Assembly (NCBI GenBank): GCA_000309945.1
Contig: CM001633.1
Coordinates: 4,103,912 to 4,167,911, forward strand
DNA length: 64,000 nt
Direction of reading: 5' to 3'
Source of the DNA: Leptolyngbyaceae cyanobacterium JSC-12
Lineage (GTDB): Bacteria > Cyanobacteriota > Cyanobacteriia > Leptolyngbyales > Leptolyngbyaceae
Part shown: piece after piece, positions 4,201 to 16,921 of the stretch
Numbering within the stretch: position 1 is the stretch's first letter
Layout: each line of letters opens with the position of its first letter
Position numbers and translations under genes: made by a program
The notes under the pieces: generated by a model
Told to the model about the DNA's origin: nothing
The model's database searches: none
What the model saw: only the letters and a program-made list of their open reading frames with translations

Positions 4201-6177
4201 TCAAGCTACTGAGCGGAAGGCTTGAGCCGTTAAGCCCGTGACATCCTGCACAACAGCAATTAACTCATTCGCACCATTTGCCGTGAGATAAATGGCGGTG
4301 TCTAAAGCGGATGAACCAGCATGGGCTTCTGATCGCAGAGTGTAGTTGCTTAAACTTCCCTTAATTTGAATCAGATCGCCTGTGCCAAAATCGGTGATCA
4401 GGGCAAAGTCATTTGCGCCTGCACTGCTGTAGAATACGTGGCTGTTGTTTTGTACGCCCAAAACAAACACATCATTGCCTGTGCCACCCGTGAGTGTGTC
4501 TTTTTCGTTTGCACCTGAATTTGAAGCAGTCGCATCCACTCCAATCAAGGTATCGTTGCCAGCCAAACCTTGAAGCAAGTTGTTGCTGTTGTTGCCGGTA
4601 ATCTGGTTATCTTTGCTGTTACCTGTGCCGTTGGTAGCAGTGCCAGTAAGTACCAGATTTTCGAAGGCGGTGCCCAGGGTGAAACTGCTATTGGAAAGAA
4701 CAGTGTCGATGCCGCCATTGTCGAGAATGATGTTGTCTCCAGAACCGATGATGAAGGTATCGTTGCCAGTGCCGCCAATTACCACGTCATCGCCTGCGCC
4801 GTCTTCTAAAATATCGCCGTTGTTGCTGCCAATAATGACATCATCCCCGTCACCGCCGGATAGGTGGAGTTTCAGCGCCCCTGCTACCACTCCCGTCGCA
4901 TCAATTACATCATCTCCAGCTAAAAGGTCTATTTTCAGCACATCCTGGACTTCTGCGCCAGCGATCGCGATGGTTGCTGCTAATCCCAATACTGTCACGC
5001 TGCTGGCATTGCCTTGCAGCAGTGCCACGTCATTGCTGTTGGTGCCTTTAGCCGTGATCGTATCGATTTGCCCATCTCCACCGGAACCAGCCGCGCTTAA
5101 GTTGAGGTTGATGCGATTGACATCGGTGCCAGACAGATTGTTGATGGTGATGGTATCGGCTCCCCCCAGCGCATTGAAATCGATGACTTCTACATCATTC
5201 AAATCCATCACGATATTGGCAATGTTGCGGAAGAAGCGCACCCGTCTGCCGTTGGCAGACACATCAATTACTTCGCCAATGTTTGCCCCGTTGAACAGCA
5301 TGGTATCAATGCCATCCTGCCCTTCTACAATGTCGCTACCGTCCCCTGGGTCCCAAATAAAGAGGTCATTGCCTGCACCCAGGAACGCCACATCATCTCC
5401 CTGATTGCCGTCAATTATGTCATCCCCGTCGCCACCCAATAGCAGATCATTGCCGTTACCCCCCAAAATGGTGTCGTTCCCAGCACCACCATCCACAGTG
5501 ATTTGAATCAGGGAAGCTAAATTGCCAGAAGCCGTGATCAGGTCGTCGCCACCGTTGGCATTTACAACTAAGTGTTCAGTGGTACCAATATCCAGGCTAA
5601 AGGGAGCAGGGTTAGTACGGTCAAAACGGACACGTGAACCGTTGGCAGTGATGGTAAAGACTTCTGCGCCGTTGCCGCCGTTGACTTCGGCAGTGTCGAT
5701 ACCAGCACCGCCTTCAAACAGGTCGCTGTCATCGCCTGGATTCCAGATCATGCGATCGTTGCCCGCTTCACCAAACACCTGATCATCGCCATCACCACCT
5801 ATGAGAACGTCGTTGCCTTCGCCCCCAAAGATGAAATCATTACCGCCCTTGCCCAGAATCGTGTCATTACCTGCCTGACCGAATAGCTGATCTGCGCTGG
5901 AACCGCCTGTAGTCGTGTCATTACCAGTACCGCCAAACAGGAATGCTCTAGGCAATGCGCCATTGCTTTCATTCAAGGTCAAGGTGTCGTTTCCACCTAG
6001 GCCAAACGCTTGAATGAAGCTAACGTTAGCAACGGTGGCAGTGCCTCCCCTAATGGCAACTGCACCCCCGTTAATCAAGATTTTACCTGCCGCATCACGG
6101 CTCACTTCTACCGTGTTTGCCAGGTTGTCCGCAAAGATAGATAGGTTTCCTGCTGAGAAGAATGCTGTGACAGCCAT
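4201..6177 (-). CDS. RTX-type calcium-binding repeat protein
   Basis: 658-residue acidic protein built from haemolysin-type nonapeptides (GGxGxDxUx), which form a calcium-bound parallel beta-roll. Clear blocks are LFGGTGNDT to VFGEAGNDR (about 78-145), GGAGNDTILGGNGNDLLLGG, GGDGDDVIIGSNNGD and LQGLAGNDTLIG. A larger unit is duplicated: DPGDDSDLFEGGAGIDT...ANGSRVRF and DPGDGSDIVEGQDGIDT...ANGRRVRF. The C-terminus (ITDFGTGDLIQIKG...) is the usual tail of cyanobacterial RTX proteins. There is no N-terminal signal peptide, as expected for type I secretion through a C-terminal signal, but no secretion ABC/HlyD genes are nearby. The role is unknown; structural or surface functions are typical guesses. 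The start has a clear AGGAGAAACC ribosome-binding site. Confidence 0.9.
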   Translation of the reverse strand: MAVTAFFSAGNLSIFADNLANTVEVSRDAAGKILINGGAVAIRGGTATVANVSFIQAFGLGGNDTLTLNESNGALPRAFLFGGTGNDTTTGGSSADQLFGQAGNDTILGKGGNDFIFGGEGNDVLIGGDGDDQVFGEAGNDRMIWNPGDDSDLFEGGAGIDTAEVNGGNGAEVFTITANGSRVRFDRTNPAPFSLDIGTTEHLVVNANGGDDLITASGNLASLIQITVDGGAGNDTILGGNGNDLLLGGDGDDIIDGNQGDDVAFLGAGNDLFIWDPGDGSDIVEGQDGIDTMLFNGANIGEVIDVSANGRRVRFFRNIANIVMDLNDVEVIDFNALGGADTITINNLSGTDVNRINLNLSAAGSGGDGQIDTITAKGTNSNDVALLQGNASSVTVLGLAATIAIAGAEVQDVLKIDLLAGDDVIDATGVVAGALKLHLSGGDGDDVIIGSNNGDILEDGAGDDVVIGGTGNDTFIIGSGDNIILDNGGIDTVLSNSSFTLGTAFENLVLTGTATNGTGNSKDNQITGNNSNNLLQGLAGNDTLIGVDATASNSGANEKDTLTGGTGNDVFVLGVQNNSHVFYSSAGANDFALITDFGTGDLIQIKGSLSNYTLRSEAHAGSSALDTAIYLTANGANELIAVVQDVTGLTAQAFRSVA

Positions 6178-8938: not shown

Positions 8939-11900
8939 ATGTCAAATCGCAAGCTAGCCAAAGCCATCCAGCGGCTCTTTAAGCAAATCTGGAAGCTATA
9001 CCGCAGCCTGTCAAAGGCATTTGTTACCTGGCTGTTAAGAGCCGCCCTTCTTCCCAATCGCCGTCGAGCAGCCGCTGGATTTGTCCTCCCCACCACTGTA
9101 TTTCTCATCCTGGTAGTGACCCTCACTGCAGGTGCCCTCAGCTACCGCGCCTTCAACAACAGTACCCGCGTCACTGCCAACGTGCAGAGCAAGGAAATAT
9201 ATAACGCGGCAACGCCTGCAATTGATCGCGCCCGTACCAAAATTGAATCACTCTTCGCTGATCCGCGCTATCCCGGTGGGGTACCGTCGGAAGGGTTTCT
9301 CACCTCCATGATGCTGAATGACAATCGGGAGATTAAGGGAACCAGAGCAACCATTCGACCAGGAATTGATGGAACCACCCAACCGGACGACCCTTACACA
9401 TTGCTGGATGAAGTCCGAGTTGATGTGAATGGTGACGGGCAATTAGACAATGCCTGGATTTATCACGACAATCAAAGCCGCTCCAGCATCATTTACTCTG
9501 TGACATTCTCAACCCCTCCAGATACTTCCACACTGGCAGGCTGGCAGCGGTTGTTGCAAATGAATGAGCAGGAAAAAGCCAACGGAGCCGATGAGCCGCT
9601 TGCTGGTCCCTTTGTGCGAACAGGTCCTTTAGAAAGCCAATCAGCCGTTGCCTGTCGCGTATCTGATGGTAGCCCAGTTGAACAAGGGTGGTATAAAGAC
9701 AAAAATTCTACTGCTCTATTGCGAAAGCGTTTCCAGGTCGATGCTTTTGTCGTCAAGGATGATTCTGTTGCAGCCGGAAGGCCTCCCAGCATTACAACGC
9801 TGGAATTTTCTCAAGACCGTCTGCTTGACCGCGGGAACAAGTGGGGAGCCTGGTTTCGTAATGATTTAGAAATTTACCCCGCTCCGCCCTTTAACTGGAA
9901 CGGAGCCATGCATACAGAAGGAAGTTTACTTCTGGGTGGTGCAAGCGATAGGTTTAGTGCCTACCTGATCAGTTCTCCTAACTCGTGTCTATTTTTGCCC
10001 GAAACAAACTCAGAGATTGAGGTAAGACGAAAAGGCACCGAGTTCACTGGAGTAATTGCAGCCGCAGAAAACCGCAGCAACTCAATCTCAGGCTCTCAGT
10101 TTCGGGTTCATACTTACAACGGTAATCAACCATATGAGGAAATTTTTAATTCAGCAAACCACTGGTTCACAGGCAATAAAAACCCGATTGATTTTTCGCT
10201 CGATCCAACAGTTGTTTTGACCCAGGATGGTTATCGAGCGCGGGGCGGCGACCCAACTAACTTTGATGCAGCGATATCAGAGGCTCAAGTTCAAGCAAGT
10301 GTTTTTACATCGGGTAAGCGCTTCAGGAACGACAACGAAGGCACTCGTCCTTATATTGATGACACCTATCGTGCAGATAATCGCTACGGTCCAAAACCTG
10401 TCTACACAGCAGGGATATCAGCACCCAGTGACAAATTGGGTGAACTCATTCCCAGTACTGACCCTAACTTCAATGCACTAACCCGTGAAGCTCCTGCCGG
10501 TTCAGATACGGCAACTGTAGGATTAGATGGTTATTGGGAACGTCGCTCGATTGTTGAAGGGTTGCGGATTCTTGTTGGTCAACGCCTGGAATTGGGGAAC
10601 CCGGCTGGCTGGGTCACACCCAAGAACCGACCAGATAGCCGACCTCCTGCAAACTATCTCCTACAAACTGGTCCCTATCTGGAGGGTGGGGATACGGGCA
10701 GTCAGGCGAACAACCAATCCGATGATCAGGTTGAAGATATCAGAGCTGAAGACTACACAAATGCAACCACGATCGCCAACGCAGACATTAAAAACAGCGA
10801 CATCGAAGGCGATCCGCTTTATCCGCCTTACCGCTTCAACGATACCACCCGTGCTCACGAAGAACGGCAGCGGCGGGCATTGCGAGATAATCTGGCGGCT
10901 GTTCAGGCAACCGCGATTTATCACCATTCCGTCAACGGTGGCACCTATCCCGTAGCCTGTCTTGCCTCCACGGCTCACCCTGGTACACCCTTTACGCTTC
11001 AACAATCCACCAACTTCTTGCCCAACCCCAACTTACCTAATTCAACTGCTCCCTGGGTTGACTTCTTCTACGGCAAAGGCACCAACGGTTGGGAATTTTC
11101 TCCTCCTGCTGCCACCGAGGCAGAGTTTGCAGACAAGATTGCCGCAGGGCAGCCATTAGGGAACGCCCTCCGCAACTTGGCAAACTTCTCGGGCGACCCC
11201 AATGGAGCCTTTCCGTTCACCCCAGCCGATATCACTGCTGCTACCACCGCGTCAAGAGCATTGCCCGATCCGACCCTGACCATGTGGGGCAATTTCTCTA
11301 ACCTGCGGAGAACACTGGCTCAACTGGATGCAGGGACAAGTTACAGCAACCTCAGCCCAGCTGATAAAACCTACCTGCATACAGCCGCCTGCACCCTGGG
11401 AATGTTGGCATACAACATCAACCAGGTGCAACAATTCAACCCCTCTACTACTGATGAAAACCTGATGGGGGATTTGGCAGCAGATATTTTTGCTTTGATG
11501 GATGGAAATGTTGACAACGGGGAAGTTCTGCCGAAAGCACAGCTAAGTACCTACGATTACAACTCAGGTGCTCCCGATTATGACCCAGTTGAAAGTCCGA
11601 AGAAGTACAATCCTCGCGATTACGACAATGCAACACCAGCAATGTTCTTGTCAGCGTTGAAGCGAAGATACGAAGATATCGTTTTTGGTGTCCCAGTACA
11701 AAGCGATCCAACAGCTTCCCAACGGTATCAGCTTGCTCTGCTAATTCATGAGCATTTTCAAATTCGGCGCGATCGCACGTTCGGATTCCGCCCCTCTCCT
11801 GCCTCAAATACCTGGAACTACAATCCCTTTGTGGTTCAACTTGGTTCATCGATTGCTAAGGCTCCTGATGCTAAACCAAACCCAGATGAAACAGGCGCTC

Positions 11901-14176
11901 AGGTAACGCTGTGGTCATCTGCTTGCAACCCAAACATTTTTAACGTACCAGGTGCAACTGCATCCAGCGGGAGTGATTCTACTGCTGTCAACACATTTAT
12001 CACAAGTCAAGTAAATTTAAATCGTTTGGCATTGTCTAGACTTTGCGGTGCGGTTATTCCTCCAGGTGGCGTTCATGATGGAGTTGGCGATGGGTATTTT
12101 CCTGCTCGTGACAACAACTTTGCTACTCCTCCCACCCTCTACACTCCAGAACCAGAGCTTCCCTATTATCAATCCGCCTCACCCAATACCCAGTTCACCA
12201 GCACAACTCTGGATGCTTCCCCGGCCAATTTACGTGCTCAGGTGGCACCAGAATTCCCCTCATTGTATTACCTGTTTCCAGAATTTAATCATGACCACGA
12301 TGGAGATAACTCTCCCATAGATCACCGTCAGCCTGGAAATGCTGATCTATACACTGGTTTGAATGTTGCTTTTCAACCATGGCGAGAGCCGTACATCACC
12401 AACCCAGCTGTTCCAGCTGCGAACACAACAGCAGGAGCCTATCAGGTTGTTAATAGTGGAACAGTAGCAGGTAGCGAAGTTGCGGACTATGCAGCACCAG
12501 TAGCAATTCCAGCAACCACTGGCTCCAGTACTCCTCGGCTTAGCGCTTTCAATTACATTGCCTTTTCTCCTTTTTCAACGGGCACAACTCCCGTTTCCGA
12601 TTTCGTAGTTGATTTGGAGGTTACCCCAAAGGCGCTAGGTTCATGGGCACTTCCCACCACTGCTGGAGCTTTGCCCGCTGTTAACCAAATACGCACCGCG
12701 AGCGGCAATGTGGCAGTTCCCTTCTTGGATAAGGTCTTATTCAACGGACGGGAAATGCAACCCAGCCGGGTGTTAGATATTGACCTTGATATGCTGCGGA
12801 GAAACTCGCCTGCTGCTGGAGATGCCTGGTTACCAGAAAGTGGAATTGTTTATGCTTTCCGAGAAGATGCAGTGCGAGAAGATGCAATTCTTCGCCCTGC
12901 CAGAACTCTACAACAAACCGATGCCAGAACCCCTGGGGCTGAGGCCGACCCGCCGCTGCAAAATGGAGCGTCTGTTAAAGCGGTGGATTATGTTCCTGAT
13001 CCTGATCGCCGGGTGCACGGCTTCCGACTCCGCAATGGCGAACGGCTGAAACGCATTGCGGGCGGCATCCCCGATAACCGAAACATTCGCGGCTTGTCCT
13101 TCTTCACTGATGACTTGGCTTACATCATGGGTGACTTTAACAAGCACCAAACCGATGGAGGCACTGAGCTGCAAGAGTTTGCAGAAACACTGGACGGCAT
13201 TTACACCTACGATCAGTTTTATGGTCGTACTACTCGCGACACCAATTTTGCCAAAGCATCCACCGATGAATGGCGACCTTCTGAAGTGCTAGCTGATGCG
13301 ATTTACGTACTCTCTAACAATTTTTGCGACGGCAGTTTAGAAGACGTTTTTGCAACGGCTGGTAATGGTGGCATAGGTGCCAGAGACAATGTAAGAGTGA
13401 GTGCTTGTGGAGGTAACGTCGCAACTTCTTACCTGAACCAGAACCGACCTGCTGTAGCTTTGCAAACTGGCTGGCAATGGGTGCGTGAGCTACCGGATGA
13501 TCGCAACTCCCCAGTCAAAATTTCCCGCAACGGTAACCCGTTAATGAAACCCCCCGTAACAGGACAAGCAACCCAGTATCCTGGTGAGTATGCGGGTGTA
13601 TATAACAATGGGGCAACTGTAGAGACGGGTGGATTTTACAATTCCTGGGGTGGGACCACGGCTTCTCCGGGGGTTCCCAGCAGTGGGCAACAGTCTAGAG
13701 CCATCAATAATGCTCAACAGACTACCGTGAATACCATCATGATTAGCGGCATCACTCCCAGTCGCCAGAACCAGGCATACGGAGGATTGCAAAACTTCCC
13801 TCGCTTCCTGGAGTGGTGGGAAGGTGTTCCATTAAAGTTTTCTGGCTCTTTCATTCAGTTAAATTTCAGCAACTACGGCACAGCTCCCTTTGACTTGGAT
13901 GCGTGGGAGCCAGGCGCAACTCCCAATGGTTCTGAGGTTTTGGACTATTTCGGCTTTGCCCCTCAACGGGTTTGGGGGTATGATGTCGGTCTGCAAATTG
14001 CCCCGGCAGGGCCTGCAGCAAACCGCTTTGTGCAACTCAGCAGTACCCGCAACGAGTTTTACAATGAGCCTCCTGCTAACGATTTCTATATGCAAAATCT
14101 GTGTCGTTCTTTGAGAACAAATTCGGCAAGTGCACCTGGTGGTGTTAACCTGAATGCCTTAACCTGTCCAACTTAA
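8939..14176 (+). CDS. hpsA: Hormogonium polysaccharide protein HpsA
   Basis: 1745 residues. HpsA is required in Nostoc punctiforme for surface polysaccharide linked to gliding of hormogonia; its biochemical role is not known. A basic cytoplasmic leader ends in RRRAAAG-FVLPTTVFLILVVTLTAGAL (Gly47/Phe48), a prepilin-like hydrophobic segment whose fifth residue is Thr52 instead of the usual Glu. This also occurs in the type II secretion tip protein GspK. The rest is a very large extracytoplasmic region starting SYRAFNNSTRVTANVQSKEIYNAATPAIDRARTKIE, with Asp/Asn-rich stretches such as NHDHDGDNSP that could bind calcium. Three pseudopilin genes follow on the same strand. The assignment rests on the N-terminal signature, size and context. 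Confidence 0.88.
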   Translation: MSNRKLAKAIQRLFKQIWKLYRSLSKAFVTWLLRAALLPNRRRAAAGFVLPTTVFLILVVTLTAGALSYRAFNNSTRVTANVQSKEIYNAATPAIDRARTKIESLFADPRYPGGVPSEGFLTSMMLNDNREIKGTRATIRPGIDGTTQPDDPYTLLDEVRVDVNGDGQLDNAWIYHDNQSRSSIIYSVTFSTPPDTSTLAGWQRLLQMNEQEKANGADEPLAGPFVRTGPLESQSAVACRVSDGSPVEQGWYKDKNSTALLRKRFQVDAFVVKDDSVAAGRPPSITTLEFSQDRLLDRGNKWGAWFRNDLEIYPAPPFNWNGAMHTEGSLLLGGASDRFSAYLISSPNSCLFLPETNSEIEVRRKGTEFTGVIAAAENRSNSISGSQFRVHTYNGNQPYEEIFNSANHWFTGNKNPIDFSLDPTVVLTQDGYRARGGDPTNFDAAISEAQVQASVFTSGKRFRNDNEGTRPYIDDTYRADNRYGPKPVYTAGISAPSDKLGELIPSTDPNFNALTREAPAGSDTATVGLDGYWERRSIVEGLRILVGQRLELGNPAGWVTPKNRPDSRPPANYLLQTGPYLEGGDTGSQANNQSDDQVEDIRAEDYTNATTIANADIKNSDIEGDPLYPPYRFNDTTRAHEERQRRALRDNLAAVQATAIYHHSVNGGTYPVACLASTAHPGTPFTLQQSTNFLPNPNLPNSTAPWVDFFYGKGTNGWEFSPPAATEAEFADKIAAGQPLGNALRNLANFSGDPNGAFPFTPADITAATTASRALPDPTLTMWGNFSNLRRTLAQLDAGTSYSNLSPADKTYLHTAACTLGMLAYNINQVQQFNPSTTDENLMGDLAADIFALMDGNVDNGEVLPKAQLSTYDYNSGAPDYDPVESPKKYNPRDYDNATPAMFLSALKRRYEDIVFGVPVQSDPTASQRYQLALLIHEHFQIRRDRTFGFRPSPASNTWNYNPFVVQLGSSIAKAPDAKPNPDETGAQVTLWSSACNPNIFNVPGATASSGSDSTAVNTFITSQVNLNRLALSRLCGAVIPPGGVHDGVGDGYFPARDNNFATPPTLYTPEPELPYYQSASPNTQFTSTTLDASPANLRAQVAPEFPSLYYLFPEFNHDHDGDNSPIDHRQPGNADLYTGLNVAFQPWREPYITNPAVPAANTTAGAYQVVNSGTVAGSEVADYAAPVAIPATTGSSTPRLSAFNYIAFSPFSTGTTPVSDFVVDLEVTPKALGSWALPTTAGALPAVNQIRTASGNVAVPFLDKVLFNGREMQPSRVLDIDLDMLRRNSPAAGDAWLPESGIVYAFREDAVREDAILRPARTLQQTDARTPGAEADPPLQNGASVKAVDYVPDPDRRVHGFRLRNGERLKRIAGGIPDNRNIRGLSFFTDDLAYIMGDFNKHQTDGGTELQEFAETLDGIYTYDQFYGRTTRDTNFAKASTDEWRPSEVLADAIYVLSNNFCDGSLEDVFATAGNGGIGARDNVRVSACGGNVATSYLNQNRPAVALQTGWQWVRELPDDRNSPVKISRNGNPLMKPPVTGQATQYPGEYAGVYNNGATVETGGFYNSWGGTTASPGVPSSGQQSRAINNAQQTTVNTIMISGITPSRQNQAYGGLQNFPRFLEWWEGVPLKFSGSFIQLNFSNYGTAPFDLDAWEPGATPNGSEVLDYFGFAPQRVWGYDVGLQIAPAGPAANRFVQLSSTRNEFYNEPPANDFYMQNLCRSLRTNSASAPGGVNLNALTCPT

Positions 14177-14188
14177 TTTGGGAGGGAT

Positions 14189-14206
14189 GGTAAAAATTGC
14201 TTTACC
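14189..14206 (+). other. Intercistronic hairpin between hpsA and hpsB
   Basis: GGTAAA-AATTGC-TTTACC within GGAGGGAT...ACCCCTTCC, 12 bases after the hpsA stop. No T-run follows, so it is more likely an mRNA processing or stability element that sets hpsA and hpsB levels apart than a full terminator. Confidence 0.45.
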
Positions 14207-14286
14207 ACCCCTTCCTGGTCTACCCCTGAGTTCTAGTTGATTGATTTAGGTCTTTACAAGCTCATCTTCCTGATTGGGAAAAAACT

Positions 14287-15105
14287 ATGTCAGCCCGTCG
14301 CCTACCTCCTCCAGTTGTTCCTTTGGTTACAAAGTGGCTCTTAGTTGCTTCTAAATCGTCGCAGCCATCTCGTGTTGCTGGTTCCTCAGAGGCAGGGCTA
14401 TCTCTGATTGAGTGTTTGGTGGCAATTTTGGTGATTGCAGTGACAGTTGTGGCAATTACACCGCCTGTTTTCCTGGCAACTGCCAGCCGGATTCAGGCGC
14501 GTCGAGCAGACCAGGCAAACCAAATTGCTCAGGCAGAGGTGGATCGGATTCGCGGCATTGTGGAGCGAGGTGCCTATGTTGAAGCTGCATTGCCTCCCAT
14601 TGGCAATGCGACAAGCGTTAAAGATACAACTGCGGCAACCAGTGTGAATACCACCCTGCTTCTCTCTCCTGGAACTTGCACGGTTGGGAGGTATCCTCCA
14701 GTCCTTGCCAGTCCGCCTCCTGCAACTAGCCCTCTTGGCTCGAATCAATTGATTCCAGTGGATATAGATGGCGATTGTCAGGCAGAGTACGCGATGCAAG
14801 TTTTTCGGACTCAGGGGTGTGTGCCTGCCAATAAGCCAGCCGATACTCCTCCTTATTCGTTCTCGGTTGGAGTACGGGTATATTCCTATAATCCGCAAGA
14901 TGGGGCAACAGTTCCGACATTAGGAACCGAGCGCGCTAACTTGGCGATGACAACTGGACGACGAGATAAAGGGACTGAATTTCGAAGACCTTTGCAAGTT
15001 GTGTACTCCCGAGCTAGCCGCAACACGAATGCAGATTCTTTCCAGTGTGTGGCGCGTGATCAATCTCCTCCGGCTCCTACGCCCTCCCCTTCTCCGTCTC
15101 CTTAA
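14287..15105 (+). CDS. hpsB: Pseudopilin HpsB (GspI-like)
   Basis: 272 residues. The type III signal is SEAG-LSLIECLVAILVIAVTVVAI with Gly37 before the cleavage point and Glu42 at mature position 5. It is followed by the usual N-terminal helix (RRADQANQIAQAEVDRIR). The C-terminus is a Pro/Ser tail (APTPSPSPSP). It is a minor pseudopilin, processed by prepilin peptidase and inserted in the inner membrane; the type II secretion counterpart would be GspI. It lies 110 bp after hpsA and 53 bp before hpsC, so it is in the same operon. The leader is unusually long (37 residues), so a downstream start cannot be excluded, although the ATG is at a natural position. Confidence 0.85.
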   Translation: MSARRLPPPVVPLVTKWLLVASKSSQPSRVAGSSEAGLSLIECLVAILVIAVTVVAITPPVFLATASRIQARRADQANQIAQAEVDRIRGIVERGAYVEAALPPIGNATSVKDTTAATSVNTTLLLSPGTCTVGRYPPVLASPPPATSPLGSNQLIPVDIDGDCQAEYAMQVFRTQGCVPANKPADTPPYSFSVGVRVYSYNPQDGATVPTLGTERANLAMTTGRRDKGTEFRRPLQVVYSRASRNTNADSFQCVARDQSPPAPTPSPSPSP

Positions 15106-15158
15106 CTGAATCATTCATCTCAATCCAGCTTGCTAATCTACTTCGCCTTTAACTCCTT

Positions 15159-16268
15159 ATGGCTAGAATGCTCACTGCCAAACGCTTAAAACGTCTCTGG
15201 TTCAATCTCAAACGAGGTCGAAGCAAAGGCTTCACGCTGACTGAGTTGTTAGTCTCAATGATTGTCGGGGCGCTGATTACTTTTCTCCTATTGGCGCTTG
15301 TTGTGGAGTTGACTCAAACTAATCAACAAGATGCGGCTCGGAGTCAGGTGCAGCAGGATATGCAAGCTGCTATGGATTACATGGTGCAAGACTTACGAGA
15401 AGCTGTTTTTGTCTATAACGGTGAATGCTTGGAGGGGAATGATACTCCCAGTAGCCAGGCGGAGAGCGCCAGCAGGTGTCCGGGGGTTCGCAATCATATT
15501 CCAGCTAGTGTGGGACAAGATGCAACAAATAAAACACCAGTATTGGCATTTTGGCGAACAAAACCTCTGCCACAGTCGATTCAAGCTGCTTGTAATGCAG
15601 GTGCAGGGAGTTTGGCAGATGCGGATTTAAGCACTAATCCATTGGTATTAAACGAAGTCCCCTGTGTGCCTGGGAATATGTATGCGCTGGTGGTATATGC
15701 CCTGGATAAATCAAATCCTAACGGTATCTGGAAAGGGAAAGCTCGTCTAATCCGATATGAATTGAGTCAGTATCCAGATAATCCTACTGGTGTAGCGGAC
15801 CGCACGCCTGGGTTTGTAAATCCTTTGAGCGACCCGACGTATACTTTTCAGCAGTGGCCCTATGGCAGGGTAAACAATGCGTTTGGCAATCGGCAGACGG
15901 TTCTTCCAACCAATCCGGCGTTTACGGTTGTGGACTTTGTTGATGACGGAGTAGCAGTTACTCCCTCATGTGAGGAATTTGCCCCTTTCACCAAGGGAAA
16001 CCCTGCCAATGACAAAGATCAAGCAGCGATCGAAAATGCTTTGAGTCCTAAAAATCGCCCTCCTCGTGGTTTTTATGCTTGTGTGCGTAATGGTGGTTTG
16101 GGAGACGCAACTGGAGGTGGACAGAACCAGGATGTGTTGTTAACTTTAGTCGGTAATGTTACCGGACAGGGTGGCTTCTCGGATCGAAACGGCAATAAGA
16201 ATCGTTTGTCTCCTTTACAAACGCGAGTCTTGATTCGGGGCGTAATTAGGAAGGTTGATCAATCCTGA
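15159..16268 (+). CDS. hpsC: Pseudopilin HpsC (GspJ-like)
   Basis: 369 residues. The prepilin signal is SKG-FTLTELLVSMIVGALITFLLLALV (Gly24, Glu29 at mature position 5). The helix QQDAARSQVQQDMQAAMDYMVQDLREAVF is typical of the PilW/GspJ group. The extracellular part is larger than in ordinary GspJ. As a minor pseudopilin it would cooperate with HpsB and the next protein. The gene is 53 bp after hpsB and 35 bp before the GspH-like gene. A second in-frame ATG three codons in is also possible as the start. Confidence 0.86.
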   Translation: MARMLTAKRLKRLWFNLKRGRSKGFTLTELLVSMIVGALITFLLLALVVELTQTNQQDAARSQVQQDMQAAMDYMVQDLREAVFVYNGECLEGNDTPSSQAESASRCPGVRNHIPASVGQDATNKTPVLAFWRTKPLPQSIQAACNAGAGSLADADLSTNPLVLNEVPCVPGNMYALVVYALDKSNPNGIWKGKARLIRYELSQYPDNPTGVADRTPGFVNPLSDPTYTFQQWPYGRVNNAFGNRQTVLPTNPAFTVVDFVDDGVAVTPSCEEFAPFTKGNPANDKDQAAIENALSPKNRPPRGFYACVRNGGLGDATGGGQNQDVLLTLVGNVTGQGGFSDRNGNKNRLSPLQTRVLIRGVIRKVDQS

Positions 16269-16303
16269 GTTTTAGCTGGAACTGTTCATTGGGAGGCAGA
16301 ACG

Positions 16304-16921
16304 ATGAAATTGGGAATTCCTGAACTTCGGCGCAAACGAGCGATCGCAGGGTTTACCTTGCTAGAAACGCTAGTCGTGATTGTGATTATTGCAATTTTGT
16401 TTGCGATCGCGGCTCCCAGTTGGGATGCGTTGATGAATCGTCAGCGTGTCAACGTGATTCGAGATCAGGCACTTCAGATTGTTCGCAAAGCGCAAAACGA
16501 CGCTCGGACAACGCGTGTTCCTAAAGTTGTTATTTTCGATCCAACTGCAACAGTTCCCAGAGCTGCAATTTTGAGCGTTGAACGGAACAACCTTGGTCAA
16601 ACGGTGAATAATATCAACCCGGCTAACATCACGAATTGGCAGACCTTAGGCAATGGTGATATCAAGGAGGGGTTTGTAGAATTCTCAACAACACCAGCGA
16701 ATGGTCAACTCGTTTTTAACAGCAGTGGTTTTGTAGATTCGCTCTCCCTCAACCAGGTTGATCCAAACCTAGGAAGAAACCCTGAAACTGCAACTTCTCG
16801 TGTGTTTGCCTTCAAAGTTAAACAGCGAAATACGAGTGATGCAACGTATCGCTGTGTGATTGTGAAAACGATTTTGGGTGCGGTTGATGTTGCTGAGGGC
16901 GATCGCTGTGCGGGGGTCTAG
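16304..16921 (+). CDS. GspH/FimT-like pseudopilin of the hps cluster
   Basis: 205 residues starting at the ATG that has GGGAGG upstream. The prepilin signal is AIAG-FTLLETLVVIVIIAILFAIAAPSW with Glu at mature position 5. The segment NVIRDQALQIVRKAQNDARTTRVP is typical of the GspH/FimT group, which includes minor pilins at the pilus tip. It is the last of four genes in line after hpsA. Position suggests hpsD, but I recognise it as a GspH-like pseudopilin rather than as a proven HpsD orthologue. Confidence 0.82.
   Translation: MKLGIPELRRKRAIAGFTLLETLVVIVIIAILFAIAAPSWDALMNRQRVNVIRDQALQIVRKAQNDARTTRVPKVVIFDPTATVPRAAILSVERNNLGQTVNNINPANITNWQTLGNGDIKEGFVEFSTTPANGQLVFNSSGFVDSLSLNQVDPNLGRNPETATSRVFAFKVKQRNTSDATYRCVIVKTILGAVDVAEGDRCAGV

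Follow-up and report, generated by a model that had tools for sequence, protein, structure and literature searches.

A four-gene hps locus in a cyanobacterium of the Leptolyngbyaceae probably encodes a type IV pilus tip complex with giant HpsA as its ComZ-like capping subunit

Which minor pilins of cyanobacteria make up a tip complex is difficult to decide, as noted in a 2025 review of cyanobacterial pili (PMC12288463). Lack of glutamate at mature position 5 (Glu5) is a mark of the capping subunit, both of HIJK sets and of PilX (PMC9934059, PMC7541494, PMC10191384). ComZ is a pilin that carries a beta-solenoid between its last two strands. The pilin domain of ComZ most resembles that of GspK, and a position at the pilus tip has been argued for this protein (PMC6561018). 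Two large cyanobacterial proteins are described in papers without a function: HpsA is listed as a hypothetical membrane protein or as functionally unknown (PMC6495340, PMC4284469), and Slr2018 is called unknown (PMC5924778) or just pilin-like (PMC7076178). Hormogonium polysaccharide (HPS) is thought to supply a surface for pilus attachment (PMC12288463).

The hps locus described here is located in a 64,000-nucleotide stretch of the genome of Leptolyngbyaceae cyanobacterium JSC-12 (the window), where positions 8939-16921 hold four consecutive, co-directional open reading frames on the plus strand, separated by 110, 53 and 35 bases. The hpsA gene (8939-14176) encodes a protein of 1745 amino acids that is assigned as a giant K-type (ComZ/PilX-like) minor pilin. 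It is followed by hpsB (14287-15105; 272 amino acids), assigned as I-type (PilV/GspI-like), and hpsC (15159-16268; 369 amino acids), assigned as J-type (GspJ/PilW/PpdB-like). The fourth gene (16304-16921) encodes a GspH-like prepilin assigned as H-type (GspH/FimU/PpdA-like), and starts at ATG 16304 or at an alternative TTG at 16289. The four adjoining prepilin-like genes proposed in an earlier, sequence-only reading of this DNA are thus present, although its name for the fourth product, HpsD, calls for caution. Leptolyngbya boryana has hpsA-B-C-H as its contiguous set and lacks hpsD (table, PMC10581220), so the fourth gene is probably hpsH.

The window HpsA scores 557 bits with the NCBIfam HpsA family model (NF038301), above the curated cut-off of 400. 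The HpsB and HpsC equivalog models (NF038303 and NF038304) are still the best family matches of their proteins, yet at 60.8 and 130.8 bits against cut-offs of 150 and 200 these are diverged members and not equivalogs by the curated rule. Judged by sequence, the immediate neighbors of the locus are purH upstream and genes for a cupin, a hexapeptide acetyltransferase and GroEL downstream; no glycosyltransferase gene was seen among them. In L. boryana, hpsA-B-C-H is likewise separate from hpsE-K (PMC10581220). These arrangements favor a role in the pilus over a dedicated polysaccharide machine. Scans for terminators and promoters around the operon gave results near chance level. Two genes upstream of hpsA, on the minus strand (4201-6177), is a gene for a protein with RTX calcium-binding repeats (PF00353).

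Predicted cleavage sites place glutamate at mature position 5 of HpsB (G37/LSLIE, Glu42), HpsC (G24/FTLTE, Glu29) and the fourth protein (G/FTLLE), as the sequence-only reading had claimed. The corresponding site of HpsA, G47/FVLPTTVFLILVV (G47/FVLPT), has threonine at position 5 and proline at position 4, and the same reading had called this segment class III-like. One scan of bacterial genomes yielded 78 loci, and 71 full-length HpsA proteins were aligned. Gly0 and Pro4 are present in 71 of 71 and Phe1 in 69, and position 5 is threonine in 69, alanine in one, valine in one and glutamate in none, which agrees with the earlier description. This Glu5-less N-terminal pattern is not due to chance. 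Three or four Glu5 prepilins lie directly behind hpsA in 61 of the 66 loci with readable downstream sequence, and the usual order is the giant protein followed by proteins of about 250, 350 and 195 amino acids.

A hidden Markov model of the HpsA N-terminus ranks eight of nine E. coli pilins above six non-pilins. With this profile, PpdC and GspH outscore GspK and YgdB, and the similarity to these last two, compared by HMM and hhalign, is unspecific. The N-terminus of HpsA therefore appears to be pilin-like, but not specifically GspK-like. It is preceded by a leader (residues 1-46; 8939-9076) that is basic and predicted to form a helix ahead of the cleavage site; the median leader length among orthologues is 49 residues. 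HpsA is a putative substrate of prepilin peptidase, with a predicted cut after Gly47 at a conserved site. Because the leader is unusually long and moderately conserved, cleavage is not certain.

The three smaller proteins appear to take three different positions in a minor-pilin set. Among 30 orthologues of each that were scanned against NCBIfam, the PilV model matches HpsB in 19, the PpdB and GspJ models match HpsC in 23 and 17, respectively, and the GspH and PpdA models match the fourth protein in all 30; much of the signal is N-terminal and scores are below equivalog cut-offs, so these matches indicate relatedness only. They support assigning HpsB to the I position, HpsC to J and the fourth protein to H. 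As H, I and J are taken, the K position is left for HpsA, in agreement with its missing Glu5, a mark of GspK and PilX, and with the K-I-J-H order that had been proposed. In the three small proteins Pfam recognizes the N-methylation motif alone (above its threshold in two of them, but not in HpsB, where the score is lower), and in HpsA it finds no pilin family, GspK and PilX included. Most orthologues of HpsC and of the fourth protein also match NCBIfam "Verru_Chthon cassette" proteins C and D. This cassette comprises four genes, one of them for a giant protein A, and could represent a module of this type in Verrucomicrobia.

Residues 1-830 of the window HpsA were modeled with AF2 (63 sequences, mean pLDDT 77, pTM 0.57). 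The model contains one long helix at residues 51-107, whose 57 residues match the length of pilin alpha1; the sequence-only reading had named the lack of such a helix as one result that would refute its proposal, which is not what the model shows. The cleavage site and helix together (residues 47-107) correspond to positions 9077-9259. The helix is followed by an antiparallel, pilin-like sheet (residues 151-297; 9389-9829) with strands at 151-160, 172-177, 182-189, 260-273 and 286-297, and then by short strands of solenoid type. At this pTM the assignment of a pilin head fold is provisional. Calcium-loop-like motifs occur in the putative heads of HpsA (DVNGDGQLD, residues 162-170; 9422-9448) and HpsB (DIDGDCQAE, residues 159-167), and in 48 of 71 HpsA and 12 of 30 HpsB orthologues.

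The remainder of HpsA is predicted to contain a beta-solenoid in two parts. The first part begins at residues 302-413 (9842-10177) in the AF2 models. A large insertion of about 840 residues, lies at approximately 414-1250 (10178-12688); it is partly helical, is poorly conserved in its second half, and is much reduced in the shorter Slr2018-type relatives discussed below. Homology to these relatives locates the second part at residues 1358-1663 (13010-13927), with the segments GLSFFTDDLAYIMGDFN, EVLADAIYVL, GGLQNFPRFLE and PLKFSGSFIQ. A C-terminal strand at 1700-1709 (14036-14065), placed by homology from the orthologue model described next, is inferred to rejoin the pilin sheet in the manner of ComZ.

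A second model covers residues 249-1448 of the Laspinema orthologue (L114), the shortest that was usable, with mean pLDDT 79 and pTM 0.88. Foldseek searches of the PDB with this model and with that of window HpsA 1-830 gave no significant match. When the Foldseek candidates for the Laspinema body were given a second look, ComZ (6qvi) was the top match, with Z 6.9 and rmsd 6.2 over 336 residues spanning ComZ 37-522; the match is moderate (Z below 8) and comes from an orthologue fragment and not from the window protein. Behind ComZ come an ice-binding beta-helix at Z 6.0 and the C-terminal domain of a tapirin at Z 5.2, and the next candidate has Z 3.6. Tapirins bind cellulose. The 830-residue model of the window protein itself matched pilins only weakly (Z 2.9 and 2.6). 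As modeled, the topology of HpsA is that of ComZ: a pair of long strands, then a solenoid that is split, and finally a strand at the C-terminus. In sequence searches of the PDB, neither HpsA nor Slr2018-type profiles had a relevant match, and no match to ComZ was detected. Another HpsA orthologue (L053) has an ice-binding-like domain near its C-terminal end (PF11999, residues 1448-1604, 8e-18), which belongs to a fold family with similarity to the ComZ solenoid as well. A literature search, with the terms used, returned no paper on the Verru_Chthon cassette or on tapirins.

Distant matches to the HpsA model in other genomes reveal a second cassette, in the order H-I-J-K, whose large protein has 785-853 amino acids and a prepilin-like N-terminus that lacks Glu5. 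In one such cassette (L048), the N-terminal region of the large gene matches the published slr2018 primer pair (PMC5924778) with three and two mismatches, which identifies the large member as Slr2018. The smaller proteins correspond as well: PilA9 matches GspH, PilA10 matches HpsB/PilV, and PilA11 matches HpsC. The Slr2018-type profile aligns with the window HpsA in collinear blocks at approximately 259-334 (E 1.2e-6), 1358-1465 (2.6e-8) and 1584-1700 (2.4e-11), and on this profile evidence HpsA is homologous to Slr2018 (PilA12) of Synechocystis. Of the 117 genomes sampled from the phylum, HpsA scores above its cut-off in 32 and a full-length Slr2018-type protein is present in 6; none has both. 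Because of the profile kinship, the matching H, I and J members and this mutual exclusion, the hps and pilA9-slr2018 cassettes are best interpreted as a single tip module that occurs in two gene orders.

Several other occurrences of hpsA were observed. Two hpsA genes are present in each of three genomes, and in two of these (G005 and G048, as distinct from G060) both are on the same contig, which suggests that second copies are alternative tip proteins. A metagenome-assembled genome labeled Candidatus Gracilibacteria contains an hps cassette, probably on a mis-binned cyanobacterial contig. In Deinobacterium chartae (Deinococcota), a control genome, the HpsA family model has a match below the cut-off that is consistent with kinship to ComZ. 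No relatives were found in the viral contigs searched.

The genome, a single contig of 5.53 Mb, encodes one secretin, which follows pilM/N/O-like genes in a pilMNOQ-like cluster, along with one prepilin peptidase and one platform protein with two domain copies. Outside the quartet, its prepilins comprise two PilA-like proteins and one isolated FimT/GspH-like protein, and no second H-I-J(-K) set was found among them. A search for PilY1 in the genome gave no match. Elimination thus leaves the quartet as the sole H-I-J-K set, and it belongs to the sole type IV filament in this genome. Because there is a single secretin, platform and peptidase, no PilY1 match and no second set, the quartet is most likely the tip of the type IV pilus and not a type II secretion pseudopilus.

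An alternative is that the quartet forms just such a pseudopilus, a dedicated type II secretion-like piston that pushes out hormogonium polysaccharide, as was first suggested for the Hps pseudopilins. The annotation of its genes names pseudopilins for polysaccharide secretion, mutants in pilB and pilQ lose HPS, an early hypothesis had HPS exported through PilQ (PMC12288463), and a pilus and a piston could share one machine. However, HPS has a known exporter of the Wza type (PMC12288463), the genome has no secretin distinct from PilQ, and the quartet has no adjacent glycosyltransferase gene. Also, the GspK family (T2SSK, PF03934) has no match in HpsA or its relatives, and its matches elsewhere in the genome are all below the cut-off and away from the quartet. 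We therefore regard a dedicated piston as unlikely. Less likely still is that the pilus incorporates HpsB, HpsC and the GspH-like protein alone, and that HpsA is no pilin but a large polysaccharide-binding protein of the surface or periplasm, held by a membrane anchor at its uncleaved N-terminus. Its description as a hypothetical membrane protein (PMC6495340), the long leader, and the lack of both Glu5 and a Pfam pilin match would fit such a protein. Against it stand invariant Gly0 and Pro4, near-invariant Phe1, a pilin-length helix, a pilin-like sheet, ComZ as the top structural match, and the close linkage of its gene to those for H, I and J in both gene orders.

We conclude that the four genes probably encode the K-I-J-H minor-pilin complex, for priming and tip formation, of a single type IVa pilus, in which HpsA is the giant K capping subunit. 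The data behind this reading are the gene order, with one of four adjoining prepilin-like genes lacking Glu5; the placement of H, I and J by relatedness to known models; the AF2 model of a K subunit with an alpha1 helix and head (pTM 0.57); the pilin sheet with a beta-solenoid before its last strand in the Laspinema body, at moderate Z; the kinship to Slr2018; and the single machine. The physical complex that we infer would begin with HpsB and HpsC, which may prime assembly in the membrane. HpsB, HpsC and the H protein, with their Glu5 residues, would stack beneath HpsA, and the H protein would link this stack to PilA. HpsA would be the cap, because it lacks Glu5 and would be too bulky to be succeeded by another subunit, so that no pilin docks above it.

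Extension of this predicted tip would push the HpsA body outward, such that the ComZ-like solenoid and the insertion crown the pilus. In the absence of PilY1, HpsA would be both capping pilin and tip effector, and would most likely contact surfaces or extracellular polysaccharide. Polysaccharide is a plausible ligand, which we suggest with reserve, because of the proposed role of HPS as a surface for pilus attachment and because tapirins are cellulose binders. The need for HpsA in HPS production and motility would follow from lost pilus assembly or tip function. Perhaps, with somewhat less than an even chance, HpsA replaces PilX and PilY1 together, as one ComZ-type pilin that caps the pilus, carries the adhesin and binds hormogonium polysaccharide laid on the surface. 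Retraction would then pull against the cell's own slime, and the hps and pilA9-slr2018 cassettes would be interchangeable cyanobacterial tip sets.

The proposed complex offers a concrete four-subunit answer to what makes up a cyanobacterial tip, and makes its composition testable. It assigns a role to HpsA and Slr2018, joins the literature on hormogonium polysaccharide with that on flocculation and motility in Synechocystis, and suggests a route by which a pilus could manage without PilY1.

Compared with known systems, the quartet resembles GspH-I-J-K of type II secretion in having four minor pilins in one operon, of which K lacks Glu5. GspK, however, has an alpha-helical insert domain where HpsA is predicted to have a beta-solenoid, and the sole secretin of the host is PilQ-like. 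The earlier proposal of a giant GspK-like tip protein thus stands as regards a giant capping subunit without Glu5, but not as regards GspK as its analogue, since the genome has a single secretin in a pilMNOQ-like cluster and the comparison of HpsA with the GspK family model found no match. FimU, PilV, PilW and PilX of Myxococcus and Pseudomonas are likewise four minor pilins that prime a type IVa pilus, with PilX lacking Glu5 (PMC7541494); PilX is small and is capped by a separate PilY1, whereas here the K pilin is itself giant. In Streptococcus sanguinis, functional modules are grafted onto the tip pilins PilB and PilC, and PilA shares with HpsA the lack of Glu5 and the presence of Pro4 (PMC9934059), but in that species the subunit without Glu5 is small, and it is other subunits that bear the modules.

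Another close system is Slr2018 of the Synechocystis pilA9-slr2019 operon, which shares three collinear profile blocks and the lack of Glu5 and adjoins H, I and J prepilins; it differs in its smaller size, its much smaller insertion, the order H-I-J-K instead of K-I-J-H, and its absence from every HpsA-bearing genome among the 117 sampled. ComZ of the Thermus thermophilus competence pilus also has a solenoid near the end of the pilin sheet, lacks Glu5, is encoded next to small minor pilins and is argued to be at the tip (PMC6561018). HpsA is about three times larger, has its extra insertion within the solenoid and has no detectable sequence match to ComZ, whose ligand is DNA. The better analogue of the quartet is not type II secretion GspK but the type IVa tip set FimU/PilV/PilW/PilX together with ComZ of Thermus.
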